DNA from: Candidatus Zymogenaceae bacterium
GTDB lineage: Bacteria > Desulfobacterota > Zymogenia > Zymogenales > Zymogenaceae
Direction: 5' to 3'
Assembly: GCA_016931225.1 (NCBI GenBank)
Contig: JAFGFE010000003.1
Span: 1-64,000 of the forward strand
Length of the DNA stretch: 64,000 nucleotides
The notes under the pieces were generated by a model, which worked only from the letters and a program-made list of their open reading frames with translations, was not told where the DNA came from and made no database searches. Shown one piece after another: positions 8,100 through 12,318 of this stretch. A program made the translations under genes and the position numbers. Positions within the stretch are counted from its first letter, which is position 1. Every line of letters starts with the position of its first letter.

Positions 8100-8132
8100 G
8101 ACAGGGGCCGGATGTTGTATCCGGCCCCTGTC
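8100..8132 (-). terminator. Strong hairpin downstream of trpB2
   Basis: A perfect 14-bp stem, GACAGGGGCCGGAT (8100-8113) with its complement (8119-8132) around a 5-base loop, lies just past the trpB2 stop. There is no long T run on either side, so it may stabilise the 3' end as much as terminate. Confidence 0.6.
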
Positions 8133-8169: not shown

Positions 8170-9531
8170 TTACAAGTCCACCTTCGGTAAATCTTTGAGC
8201 GCCGCTTCTATCTTTTCGGAGGGATATTCGTAATCTTCCAGGTCCTTTTCGAAGTACTTATCGTACGCGGCCATGTCGAAGTGTCCGTGGCCGGAGAAGT
8301 TAAACAGGATTACCCGCTCTTCCTTCTTCTTTTTTGCATCCAGCGCCTCATCGATTGCCCCGCGAATGGCATGTGACGTTTCCGGCGCCGGAATGATGCC
8401 CTCGGTGCGTGCGAAGGTCACCGCCGCCTCAAAACACTCGTTCTGATGATAGGCCACGGCTTCAATGATCTTCTGGTCGTACAGGGTGCAGAGCGTCGGC
8501 GCCATACCGTGATATCTCAGACCCCCGGCGTGAATTCCCGGAGGCTCGAACGTATGGCCCAGGGTATGCATGAAGATCACCGGCGCCACCATGGCGGTAT
8601 CGCCGTAATCGTAGGCATACGGCCCCTTGGTGAGGGTCGGACATGAGTACGGCTCGGTCGCCAGGATTCTGGTCTTTTTCTTGTCCCTGAGTACTTCCCT
8701 GATGAACGGATAGGCGAGCCCCGCAAAGTTGCTGCCGCCTCCGACGCAACCGATGACCACATCCGGATAATCGCCGGTTTTACTCATCTGACGAAGGGCT
8801 TCTTCCCCCACCACCGTCTGATGCAGGCACACGTGATTCAGGACACTTCCGATAGAGTAATTCGTATCCCCATGGGTAGCGGCGTCTTCCACCGCCTCGG
8901 AGATGGCCATTCCCAGGGTCCCGTTGGTATTCGGATTTTTTTCCCGGATCATTCTCCCGATCTGGGTCTCTTCGCTGGGGCTTGAGAAGATCGTGCCGCC
9001 CCAGGTCTGGATCATCGACTTTCGGTACGGTTTCTGTTCAAACGATATCCGCACCATGTACACCGTCACGTCGATATCGAACAGACTGCCGGCAAAAGAC
9101 AGCGCGCTCCCCCACTGGCCGGCGCCGGTCTCCGTCGAGATACGCTTCATCCCGGCCTGCTTGTTGTAAAACGCCTGTGCCACAGCGGTGTTGGGTTTGT
9201 GCGAGCCGGCGGGCGATACGCTCTCGTTTTTATAGTAAATACGGGCGGGCGTGTTGAGATATTTCTCCAGCCGAGTCGCTCGAACCAGGGGCGTGGGCCT
9301 CCACAGGGAAAGGGCTTCCATCACCTCATCGGGGATGTCTATGAAGTCCTTCTCACTCACTTCCTGTTCTACCACGGCCATCGGAAAAATGGGCGCAAAG
9401 TCGTCCGGTGTTGCCGGCTTCAGGGTTTGAGGATTGAGCGTCGGTTTCATCGGAACCGGTAAATCGGCCACAACATTGTACCATTTGTTCGGCATCTCCG
9501 ATTTATCGAGGATGATCCTTTTTTTCGTCAT
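8170..9531 (-). CDS. trpB: TrpB2: tryptophan synthase beta chain (TrpB2 type)
   Basis: A 453-residue PLP enzyme that condenses indole with serine to form tryptophan. The PLP lysine is Lys112 in GSHKPNTA. ETGAGQWGSAL, GCVGGGSNFAGLAYPF and HAGGLRYHG are also present. The length, the N-terminal extension (DLP.PM.P.LNP) and the sequence place it in the TrpB2 group rather than the trpAB-operon TrpB1 group. No trpA or other trp gene is in the window, so it may act alone on free indole or in salvage. An AAGGAG site lies 7 bases before the ATG. Its upstream region carries a promoter, a Trp-rich leader peptide and two terminators, so tryptophan-dependent attenuation is likely. Confidence 0.93.
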   Translation of the reverse strand: MTKKRIILDKSEMPNKWYNVVADLPVPMKPTLNPQTLKPATPDDFAPIFPMAVVEQEVSEKDFIDIPDEVMEALSLWRPTPLVRATRLEKYLNTPARIYYKNESVSPAGSHKPNTAVAQAFYNKQAGMKRISTETGAGQWGSALSFAGSLFDIDVTVYMVRISFEQKPYRKSMIQTWGGTIFSSPSEETQIGRMIREKNPNTNGTLGMAISEAVEDAATHGDTNYSIGSVLNHVCLHQTVVGEEALRQMSKTGDYPDVVIGCVGGGSNFAGLAYPFIREVLRDKKKTRILATEPYSCPTLTKGPYAYDYGDTAMVAPVIFMHTLGHTFEPPGIHAGGLRYHGMAPTLCTLYDQKIIEAVAYHQNECFEAAVTFARTEGIIPAPETSHAIRGAIDEALDAKKKKEERVILFNFSGHGHFDMAAYDKYFEKDLEDYEYPSEKIEAALKDLPKVDL

Positions 9532-9614
9532 TGTACTTCTCCTTTTTTATCGAAAACAAAAAAGCGTTGACATAAAATTCCTCTGTGTATCCACATAAAT
9601 ACTATACGAAATGT

Positions 9615-9635
9615 CTATTTCCACCGTCGCCCCAT
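9615..9635 (-). other. Six-codon mini-ORF with strong Shine-Dalgarno and palindromic start
   Basis: ATG GGG CGA CGG TGG AAA TAG encodes MGRRWK. A near-perfect Shine-Dalgarno, GGAGGTGAT, ends six bases before the ATG. The start codon is the centre of a 16-base palindrome, TCGCCCCATGGGGCGA (9627-9642). It lies between the second terminator and trpB2. It may be a second leader peptide or a translational control element; the sequence alone does not decide. Confidence 0.45.
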
Positions 9636-9662
9636 GGGGCGATCACCTCCCTCCATTTCAAT

Positions 9663-9694
9663 AAAAAAACCGCTCAGCGTACTAACGCTCGCGG
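9663..9694 (-). terminator. Second terminator in the trpB2 leader
   Basis: On the minus strand CCGC-AGCGT pairs with ACGCT-GCGG (9670-9694) with small internal mismatches, followed by seven T. It lies 18 bases downstream of the first leader terminator. Confidence 0.7.
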
Positions 9695-9711
9695 TCTTTT
9701 CTTGGTTTCCC

Positions 9712-9746
9712 AAAAAAAACCGCGGGCAACCTGTGGCTGCCCGCGG
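9712..9746 (-). terminator. trpB2 attenuator terminator
   Basis: A perfect 9-bp stem, CCGCGGGCA with TGCCCGCGG (9720-9746), is followed on the minus strand by eight T. Its 5' arm can alternatively pair with GCCCGGGTA at 9797-9805, directly over the end of the Trp codons. The adjoining CCATACC (9745-9751) can pair with GGTGATGG (9761-9768). These are candidate antiterminators. Confidence 0.8.
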
Positions 9747-9771
9747 TATGGATTATCGTACCATCACCTTC

Positions 9772-9837
9772 CTATGGGCGAACCAAGGCACCTATGTACC
9801 CGGGCCACACCCACATCCATCTTTCATATTGAAGCAT
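9772..9837 (-). CDS. Tryptophan-rich leader peptide of trpB2
   Basis: A 21-codon ORF starting at the ATG at 9837 and ending in TAG at 9772-9774. Trp codons are at positions 7, 9 and 11 (RWMWVW), at 9805-9819. Three Trp in five codons is far above chance for such a short ORF. It begins about 60 bases after the predicted transcription start and is followed 26 bases later by the terminator stem. This is the layout of a trpL-type attenuator: ribosome stalling at low Trp-tRNA would change the RNA fold and allow transcription into trpB2. The ribosome-binding site is weak (GACGGA next to the ATG). A T-box riboswitch was considered and judged less likely. Confidence 0.75.
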   Translation of the reverse strand: MLQYERWMWVWPGYIGALVRP

Positions 9838-9904
9838 TCCGTCTACTGTCGTATCAATTAAATTCACTTCTTGCTTTTACCATTCAATCCCTACTATTTA
9901 GCGA

Positions 9905-9933
9905 ATCATAGCGGGAAATAGAGGGCCTGTCAA
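9905..9933 (-). promoter_or_regulatory. sigma70 promoter of the trpB2 leader transcript
   Basis: On the minus strand, perfect TTGACA (9928-9933), a 17-base spacer and TATGAT (9905-9910). The predicted start near 9898 leaves a leader of about 365 bases before trpB2. Confidence 0.8.
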
Positions 9934-9949: not shown

Positions 9950-10420
9950 CTGGAAACATGAATTGACATCCCGATTGTCCCATTTCGTACACATCCGCAC
10001 CGCTGATATACCTTTACATTCGAAAAATGCGTTCAAAGGGCGTAACGTCTCAACACAACACACATATGACATGTAATTATTCGGTATTGCCCATCTTCCA
10101 CATTGTGTTCCCTGTAGATTGCCGGATTAGATACGAACATGAAAAAGAACGACACCCTCCGATGAAGTCTCTGATAACACCGTCAGATGCTGTACTATCT
10201 TTATTAATGAGACAAACTCATCGGATAGACGGAAGGACATACATAAAAATACAGCGGTCGTCACAGAGAACATGAGGGACGGCTTCTCGCATTTTTCGGG
10301 ATGCAACATATTTCTGCATTTTCATATATTTTTGTTTGTTTTCCTCCAGCATGTGTTATACTAAACCACCAATATTTGAATTTAAAGGATACAGTGTAAT
10401 ATTCTTATTGACGGAGCAGA
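9950..10420. other. Intergenic region without a recognised gene
   Basis: This stretch lies between the trpB2 promoter and the prepilin gene. Short frames here lack ribosome-binding sites and coding character. A TATACT at 10357 could be a -10 element for the prepilin gene, but no matching -35 is clear. Confidence 0.4.
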
Positions 10421-10422
10421 AA

Positions 10423-10851
10423 ATGGTTGGCAGATCTCACACAAATCGCCTCGGTTTTACACTGATAGAGCTGATGATTACCGTCGCTATCATCGCCATT
10501 CTCGCGGCGATTGCTATTCCGAGTTTCATGTTACTTCAGGCAAAATCCAAGCAATCAGAGGCGCGAATACTCATGAGCGGTGTTTTCAATGCTGAAATCG
10601 CCTATTATGCGGAAAACAGCGAATTTACCGGCGATTTTTCGGTGCTTAATTTTCAGCCGGCATCCGATCCCAAGTACTATAAAAATTGGTATCTCAATAT
10701 CAACGGAGAGCCCGATCATTTCACCGCCACGTGCTCGGCAAATATCGATAGGGACACCGATTGGGATGTCTGGATAATTACGGAGCGCAATAGAGAACCG
10801 TGGAACCAGTTTAATGATTTACGTAACACGATAAATCCATATCCGTATTGA
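10423..10851 (+). CDS. Type IV prepilin-like protein
   Basis: A 142-residue protein from the ATG at 10423, which has a GGAG site eight bases ahead. A longer in-frame start at 10336 would put a 29-residue extension before an otherwise textbook class III leader. The leader MVGRSHTNRLG is followed by FTLIELMITVAIIAILAAIAIPSF. Prepilin peptidase should cut after Gly11, leaving N-terminal Phe and the conserved Glu at mature position 5. The globular part is short and has only one Cys, so there is no disulfide D-loop as in classical PilA. It resembles small pilins or pseudopilins. No pilus assembly genes are nearby, so this is an orphan pilin gene. Confidence 0.88.
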   Translation: MVGRSHTNRLGFTLIELMITVAIIAILAAIAIPSFMLLQAKSKQSEARILMSGVFNAEIAYYAENSEFTGDFSVLNFQPASDPKYYKNWYLNINGEPDHFTATCSANIDRDTDWDVWIITERNREPWNQFNDLRNTINPYPY

Positions 10852-11025: not shown

Positions 11026-11541
11026 TTACTGGTTGTTGAGGGCCTTGATTACTTCGTCGGTGATATCTATGCTCTCATCGGCATACAACACACCGGAAAC
11101 CCTGCTTTCAAGGACCATCGTATATCCCTCTTTCTGGCTCATTTCAGTTATGAGTTCTACAACGTCATTCATGACCACATCGATCAATTCCGATTCCATC
11201 ATGTAGAGTTCGTACTCGTAATCTTCATACTTACGCTGAAATTCGAGGTATTCATTCTCGTAGGTGCGTACTTTATCCGCATAGGCCTCTGCGGAGAGTA
11301 GAGCGGCCTCATTCTCCAGCTCTTCTCTCATTCTTATCAGGGCCTCTCCATCCTTCTCGACGTCTGCCCCCGCCGCGTTTATTCTTGTGTCCATCTCCTT
11401 TTGCGCCTTTATGCCGGCATCCGACAATTCGAGCACCTTCTGGAGATTGACGACCGCAAATTTCGTCTCTGCGGCGAATGCACCGGCAGAGATAATCATG
11501 ACGGCGCATATAATTGCCAAAACGCATGCCGCTTTTTTCAT
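11026..11541 (-). CDS. Skp/OmpH-family periplasmic chaperone, copy 1
   Basis: A 171-residue protein from the ATG at 11541, which has an AAAGGGA site and starts a normal signal peptide (MKKAACVLAIICAVMIISAGAFA). A longer in-frame start at 11604 would bury the signal peptide. The mature part follows the OmpH/Skp pattern: FAVVNLQKVLELSDAG strand-turn, two long charged helices forming a coiled coil, and a C-terminal VLESRVSGVLYADESIDITDEVIKALN module. It would act in the periplasm on unfolded outer-membrane proteins. It is a tandem paralogue of the next gene upstream, 115 bases away on the same strand, sharing the SVDITDEVIK ending. Confidence 0.85.
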   Translation of the reverse strand: MKKAACVLAIICAVMIISAGAFAAETKFAVVNLQKVLELSDAGIKAQKEMDTRINAAGADVEKDGEALIRMREELENEAALLSAEAYADKVRTYENEYLEFQRKYEDYEYELYMMESELIDVVMNDVVELITEMSQKEGYTMVLESRVSGVLYADESIDITDEVIKALNNQ

Positions 11542-11656
11542 AACAATCCCTTTTTCTCGATTCTCATCGTTACATACCATGCCGAAGACAGCCCACCGTT
11601 TCACTTATTCCGTGGCTTTCGGTATTTCGGCGAACGTCTTTTGCCACAGGGAGAGG

Positions 11657-12169
11657 CTACTTATTGTTGAGCTCCTTGATAACCTCATCGGTGATATCTA
11701 CACTCTCTGGAAAGTAGATAACACTGGCACCGTTTTTTTCAAGAATCAAGGTATATCCGCCGCTTTTGCCGAGATCTTCGATAACTTCGCTTAACTGTGT
11801 GAAAATGATGGCGGTCAATTCATAATACTGATTCTGAAGCTGGTAGTCATAATCCTCCGCCATCCGCTGCAGTTCGAGAAGCTCATCCTCATACTGACGC
11901 TTTTTTTCGGCCAAGGCGGTTGCGGAAAGCATGGGAGCCTGTTTCTCGATATCCTCCTTCATCTTGAGGATTTCTTCCTGTTTTTTCTTTACGGCCGTTT
12001 CGGCGGTGGTAAGCTTCGACTCCAGCTCGGTTTTCGCCTTTTTCCCCGGTTCGGACAGATCGATCACCTTGATAAGATCGATTACTCCCACTTTCACGTC
12101 TGCGGCAAAAGCGGGTATGCTCATGGCGACAATAACACATATCGCAACAAACAGAGCTAATCGTTTCAT
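11657..12169 (-). CDS. Skp/OmpH-family periplasmic chaperone, copy 2
   Basis: A 170-residue protein from the ATG at 12169, with a strong AAGGAGG site. The signal peptide is MKRLALFVAICVIVAMSIPAFA, followed by VKVGVIDLIKVIDLSEPGKKAKTEL and a long coiled coil (about residues 50-120). The end, YTLILEKNGASVIYFPESVDITDEVIKELNNK, is the usual OmpH C-terminal strand-helix element. It is the upstream member of a tandem pair and probably forms a similar trimer in the periplasm; mixed trimers with copy 1 are possible but unproven. No bamA or lpxD neighbour is present, unlike the common skp locus. Confidence 0.87.
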   Translation of the reverse strand: MKRLALFVAICVIVAMSIPAFAADVKVGVIDLIKVIDLSEPGKKAKTELESKLTTAETAVKKKQEEILKMKEDIEKQAPMLSATALAEKKRQYEDELLELQRMAEDYDYQLQNQYYELTAIIFTQLSEVIEDLGKSGGYTLILEKNGASVIYFPESVDITDEVIKELNNK

Positions 12170-12318
12170 AAACTGCATTCCTCCTTGTTTTGTCTCATTT
12201 CGTTTCTCAGGGGCATGTAAAAATAATACCCCATTGAAATATTCGTACACTTGTAACACACTCAATCAGGAAGGGCAAGAAAATAATAATTAGAAAATTA
12301 TAACGAATCATTATCAGA

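Follow-up and report, generated by a model that had tools for sequence, protein, structure and literature searches.

Introduction

Attenuation of trp genes is a classic mechanism. In the trpL attenuator of E. coli and other proteobacteria (RF00513) a promoter is followed by a short ORF in which Trp codons are clustered, and then by mutually exclusive antiterminator and terminator structures, and the arrangement controls tryptophan synthesis. The locus described here is built from the same parts but differs from the E. coli type in that its leader controls a stand-alone trpB2 gene and contains two tandem, mutually complementary terminators. A predicted attenuator upstream of trpB2A of Corynebacterium diphtheriae (PMC1262725) is similar in heading a transcript whose first gene is a further copy of trpB; that gene, however, shares an operon with trpA, its name trpB2 does not necessarily denote a member of the TrpB2 family, and tandem terminators, such as those of our leader, are not described in the available text of that report. 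The rimP-leader of some Gammaproteobacteria, as far as the accessible part of its description goes (PMC2965389), has tandem terminators, marked by inverse CCCg...cGGG motifs, as well as a potential antiterminator. It thus resembles the present leader in having two terminators in series and a potential antiterminator, but it precedes another gene, and the same excerpt neither mentions an amino-acid leader peptide nor proposes a relay between the terminators.

The genes themselves have also been described. The name TrpB2_o denotes a tryptophan synthase beta-2 whose gene stands outside trp operons, and for which the consulted portion of the original analysis identifies no selective function (Merkl 2007, PMC1854888), and TrpB2 is characterized as indole-scavenging in the available text of a study on Geobacter (PMC2700814). 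The gene analysed here is like TrpB2_o in belonging to the TrpB2 family by profile and in lying apart from an operon with trpB1, but it carries the trp operon's type of attenuator, and attenuation goes unmentioned for known TrpB2_o in the accessible parts of those two papers (PMC1854888, PMC2700814).

The recurrence of tandem terminators in trp leaders, with the 3' arm of the first terminator (T1) complementary to the 5' arm of the second (T2), is new here. In the open literature, to which the search was confined, neither stand-alone TrpB2_o genes under attenuation nor a leader peptide followed by interlocked tandem terminators turned up, and no paper was found to combine 'leader peptide', 'attenuation' and 'tandem terminators'. 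Some leaders in this phylum may already be predicted in a comparative genomic survey of bacterial attenuation, reportedly by Lopatovskaya in 2010. Taken as a whole, the reading that we favour, in which an attenuator controls a single-gene trpB2 transcript and one stalled ribosome would open both terminators, is to be given a probability of roughly 85 %.

The trpB2 gene, its promoter and its leader peptide

Within the window, by which we mean the whole 64 000 nt stretch of DNA that was analysed, trpB2 occupies positions 8170–9531 on the minus strand, as do all of the leader features given below. Its product is TrpB-like and of the TrpB2_o type, with profile scores above cut-off (NF009057, 719.6 bits against 366; TIGR01415, 635.6 bits against 518.85), and the gene sits outside the trp operon, while the operon of this genome carries trpB1. 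The transcript probably holds trpB2 alone, because some 210 bases separate it from the next gene start and a hairpin is located in that gap at 8128–8104. This hairpin (GGGGCCGGATACAACATCCGGCCCC, minus strand), just past trpB2, is perfect and has no U-run; it is a possible terminator or RNA stabilizer. On the other side, a type IV pilin-like protein (GFTLIELMITVAIIAILAAIAIP) is encoded on the plus strand at 10336–10851, starting upstream of trpB2, and two similar, adjoining Skp/OmpH-like proteins (11026–11604 and 11657–12265, minus strand) are apparently a tandem duplication.

An initial annotation of this DNA had described a TTGACA-17-TATGAT promoter on the trpB2 strand and an ORF of 21 codons, of which the 7th, 9th and 11th specify Trp, and both are present. 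The promoter, of the sigma-70 type, is located at 9933–9905 (TTGACA at 9933–9928 and TATGAT at 9910–9905, separated by 17 nt), matches the consensus at 11 of 12 positions, and outscores all others across the 5 kb scanned. The leader ORF (MLQYERWMWVWPGYIGALVRP, then a stop codon) occupies 9837–9772. Its Trp codons, at 9819–9817, 9813–9811 and 9807–9805, constitute region 1 (9819–9805). The ATG at 9837 lacks a good Shine–Dalgarno sequence, and translation might instead start at a GTG in the same frame, at 9867.

Terminators, antiterminator and folding

Pairing analysis places region 2 (CCTTGGTTCGCCC, 9788–9776), which supplies the 5' strand of the antiterminator, within the final codons of the leader ORF, the textbook attenuator geometry, and region 3 (GGGCAGCCACAGG, 9742–9730), its pairing partner, within the 5' half of T1. 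T1 itself (regions 3:4; 9747–9719, −26.3 kcal/mol) is followed by eight T residues (9718–9711). The run of eight had been noted correctly, but the stem, first described as 9 bp and GC, is larger, with 13 pairs of which 10 are GC. The second terminator annotated before trpB2 is found at 9695–9669 with its T-run (T2, regions 5:6; −18.9 kcal/mol for 37 nt with flanks).

The antiterminator 2:3 and the terminator 3:4 are mutually exclusive, and region 2 would be hidden beneath a ribosome that has reached the stop codon but exposed by one stalled at the Trp codons. With ample Trp-tRNA the ribosome would run to the stop codon and cover region 2, T1 would form, and T2 would catch read-through from T1; when Trp-tRNA is short the ribosome would stall on codons 7–11 and region 2 would capture region 3. 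Folding the RNA with a ribosome mask had been suggested as a check. The exclusive 2:3 and 3:4 pairings exist, but the minimum-energy fold, otherwise unconstrained, stays T1 plus T2 with the mask included, and the switch must therefore be kinetic. Region 1 pairs with region 2 in the minimum-energy fold predicted for the window's leader, as a putative 1:2 hairpin, and the 2:3 pairing of the window is not stronger than in a control with region 2 shuffled (p 0.215).

It is very improbable that a T-box, TRAP or riboswitch controls trpB2 instead of the leader peptide. The leader does match the Rfam 'trpB motif' RF04312, whose reported occurrences are in Firmicutes and Fusobacteria (PMC11109978), but weakly, its 22.1 bits falling short of the gathering threshold of 59 bits; Rfam scans of the window leader returned no family at gathering score, T-box and Trp_leader RF00513 included, and a T-box, TRAP or riboswitch reading would leave the conserved Trp-codon frame to be explained.

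Conservation of the leader and the tryptophan regulon

The nearest relative with trpB2 (G002) belongs to another genus, and no further genome of the family was found to carry the gene. In G002 the promoter, the leader ORF (MDCYTRIFFEMKGWAWRSYIGGLLRPPL, then a stop codon), T1, T2 and trpB2 follow one another in the same order as in the window, and a like promoter can be recognized by eye both at this trpB2 and at three trpE leaders of family f1. The initial annotation had held that attenuation would be refuted by close relatives with both hairpins but without the Trp codons or the leader frame; G002 retains all of these, as well as the promoter, and so passes this check. The frame and the pattern W-x-W...YIGxLxRP are kept in its trpB2 leader and, partly, in trpE leaders. 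Although the stem sequences of the window and G002 have diverged, 2:3 and 3:4 remain possible in both; in G002 the 2:3 pairing joins GTTTGTTGCGTCCAC to GTGGACGGGCAGAAC, and 3:4 is kept too. Region 2 lies in or beside the last codons of the leader ORF in families f1 and f39, and the antiterminator pairing survives sequence change across the leaders compared.

A complete trpEGDCFB1A operon is present on a different contig of the same genome, and its leader (TGGGCGTGGCGTATCTACATAGGAGATTCGTCC, NWAWRIYIG...), also with two terminators, is a paralogue of the trpB2 leader. The proposal that trpB2 alone is under such control thus stands for this transcript but not for the genome. A like leader, again with two terminators, precedes trpE in G001 and G002, and in G000 and G002 the motif TGGGNGTGGCNNNNNNACATA, with no mismatch allowed, is confined to trpB2 and trpE. 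In family f39 trpE is directly downstream of an attenuated trpB2, with the leader before trpB2; in three of its genomes (G041, G077 and G106) trpB2 lies immediately 5' of trpE on the same strand, and it therefore probably heads the trp operon there. The paralogy with the trpE leader, the confinement of the motif to trpB2 and trpE, and the f39 arrangement place trpB2 in the tryptophan attenuation regulon. Elsewhere in the phylum, the trpE leaders of G054, G266 and G185 (L148, L150 and L151) are of a different type, with a W-x-x-W-W ORF and a single strong terminator. The gene dsrA was found in 17 of 39 relatives, which suggests that the phylum is Desulfobacterota.

Survey of trpB2 upstream regions

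The survey covered 118 oriented regions upstream of trpB2, of which nearly all belong to the same phylum. We looked in each for a terminator preceded by a short Trp-cluster ORF, with the reverse strand and five shuffles of all 118 as controls. This combination was found in 19 regions on the forward strand, in none on the reverse strand and in none of the 590 shuffles. When no terminator was required, ORFs with at least three Trp in six codons numbered 22/118 forward versus 0/118 reverse; two of these 22 (L006 and L028) resemble parts of upstream genes, and a third (L132) may be a chance match. The leader peptides of the survey include WWWW, WWRW and WVWWW, and the named relatives L031–L038 have no Trp leader. 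In five members of family f15 (L005, L055, L056, L060 and L008) a palindrome like CTGGTATACCGTATACAG, possibly a repressor operator, overlaps or follows the −10 element of the trpB2 promoter.

These counts bear on whether the leader could be a random Trp-codon ORF that happens to lie beside ordinary intergenic terminators. Three other minus-strand ORFs in the window do reach three Trp in six codons, but the shuffles and the reverse strand gave zero matches, the frame and peptide are conserved in another genus, and a paralogue is found on the trp operon, so that a chance origin is scarcely credible and is refuted by the comparison. The trpL-type attenuation of trpB2 that was first suggested is supported by the anatomy of the leader, by its conservation in G002, and by the 19 matches among 118 upstream regions as against none in the controls. 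The promoter, the Trp-rich leader ORF, the exclusive 2:3 and 3:4 pairings and the paralogous leader of the trp operon can all be demonstrated in the sequence and by comparison, and a ribosome-mediated tryptophan attenuator before trpB2 is, on that footing, very probable.

On this reading trpB2 would be switched on by tryptophan shortage, alongside the trp operon, which would suit an emergency or indole-capturing synthase. The placement of about one-sixth of the surveyed trpB2 genes under a starvation switch of the trp-operon type ties TrpB2 to tryptophan supply, and tryptophan limitation is a condition under which to seek the function of TrpB2 outside trp operons.

Tandem terminators and a proposed relay

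T1 and T2 occur in series in 19 leaders (12 of trpB2 and 7 of trpE) from seven families, and every one of them allows 8–15 pairs to form between the 3' arm of T1 and the 5' arm of T2. As a control we permuted the pairs of T2 while keeping the composition of its stem; permuted T2 gives weaker pairing in nearly all leaders, with p < 0.05 in 15 of the 19 and a combined value over family medians of 4e-8. In the window the resulting hairpin 4:5 (CGCGGTTTTTTTTGGGAAACCAAGAAAAGACCGCG, 9724–9690) joins the T1 3' arm and U-run to the A-tract and T2 5' arm around a GAAA loop and, at −23.3 kcal/mol, is more stable than T2 (−18.9 kcal/mol). When 2:3 is forced in a constrained fold, the best structure of the window has 4:5 and no T2, and T2 is likewise absent from the genome's own trpE leader; in the trpB2 leader of G002 and in L117 T2 still forms at equilibrium under the same constraint, and a relay there would therefore have to be kinetic.

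The relay that we propose continues the starvation pathway. Once 2:3 has formed, the 3' arm of T1 would be freed and, with the U-run, would capture the 5' arm of T2; with 4:5 in place T2 could not form and trpB2 would be transcribed. Such a relay would explain how trpB2 is expressed past T2. We lean slightly towards this step, in which one stalled ribosome may open both terminators. Whether a relay, or domino, attenuator with the exclusive hairpins 1:2/2:3/3:4/4:5/5:6 is used phylum-wide for trp operons and trpB2 is, in our estimate, an even question.

The main competitor is a classic attenuator in which T1 alone is regulated and T2, as a duplicate of T1, merely serves as a back-up, the arms shared by the two being without a separate function; we regard this as a real though less probable alternative. 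T1 and T2 share the base of the stem in most leaders, so the complementarity between them could be a relic of terminator duplication. T2 is also more stable than 4:5 in over half of the tandem leaders, and T2 arms taken from other families often pair nearly as well with the T1 3' arm. An always-active T2, however, would block trpB2 and trpE under starvation too, and the mutually complementary bases have been retained while loops and upper stems diverged. Differences between the 5' arms of T1 and T2 lean towards those that preserve the 4:5 pairing (22 of 29 transitions keep it versus an expected fraction of 0.536, p = 0.012, the differences not being independent), and the 4:5 hairpin of the window extends to pairing between the T1 U-run and the A-tract of T2.

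That the shared stem sequences are instead a protein-binding motif, with no RNA relay, is improbable. NusA, for example, might bind the 5' arm of the terminators; in the available text of one report its contacts in the attenuation of trp, his and S10 are with the upstream arm of the terminator hairpin (PMC2965389), and GCCGTGG is frequent. The arm sequence nevertheless varies among leaders (ACCGCG, GCCGTGGA, GCCGCGGG, GCCGTTTAAG and GGCCACGG), while T1 and T2 of each leader are alike or complementary.

Should the interlocked terminators act as we propose, they would be a new wiring of a textbook mechanism, giving very tight repression together with full opening, whose leakiness and dynamic range could be set against those of attenuators with one terminator.

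A second conserved mini-ORF

Two features go beyond the initial annotation: the paralogous leader on the genome's trp operon, and a conserved mini-ORF between T2 and trpB2. The latter (9650–9615 with its ribosome-binding sequence) consists of a Shine–Dalgarno sequence that spans ten bases (GGAGGTGATC, 9650–9641) and the reading frame ATGGGGCGACGGTGGAAATAG (9635–9615), whose start codon lies within a hairpin loop, and it is conserved in G002. The stretch common to both genera, GGTGATCGCCCYATGGGGCG, is found at almost equal distance in the two, with diverged surroundings; over 20 nt there is one difference from G002, and the longest run in 200 shuffles was 16. The frame reads ATG GGG CGN ... TGG ... 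stop, encoding MGRRWK in the window and MGRVWC in G002. In 59 relatives the motif is exact only at these two trpB2 genes, all other matches having 2–3 mismatches, and a search of f39 and other families for a comparable second ORF gave strong Shine–Dalgarno-like stretches only, with no conserved Trp ORF. The mini-ORF may be a further site for ribosome loading, another sensor of Trp, or a site bound at the RNA or DNA level.
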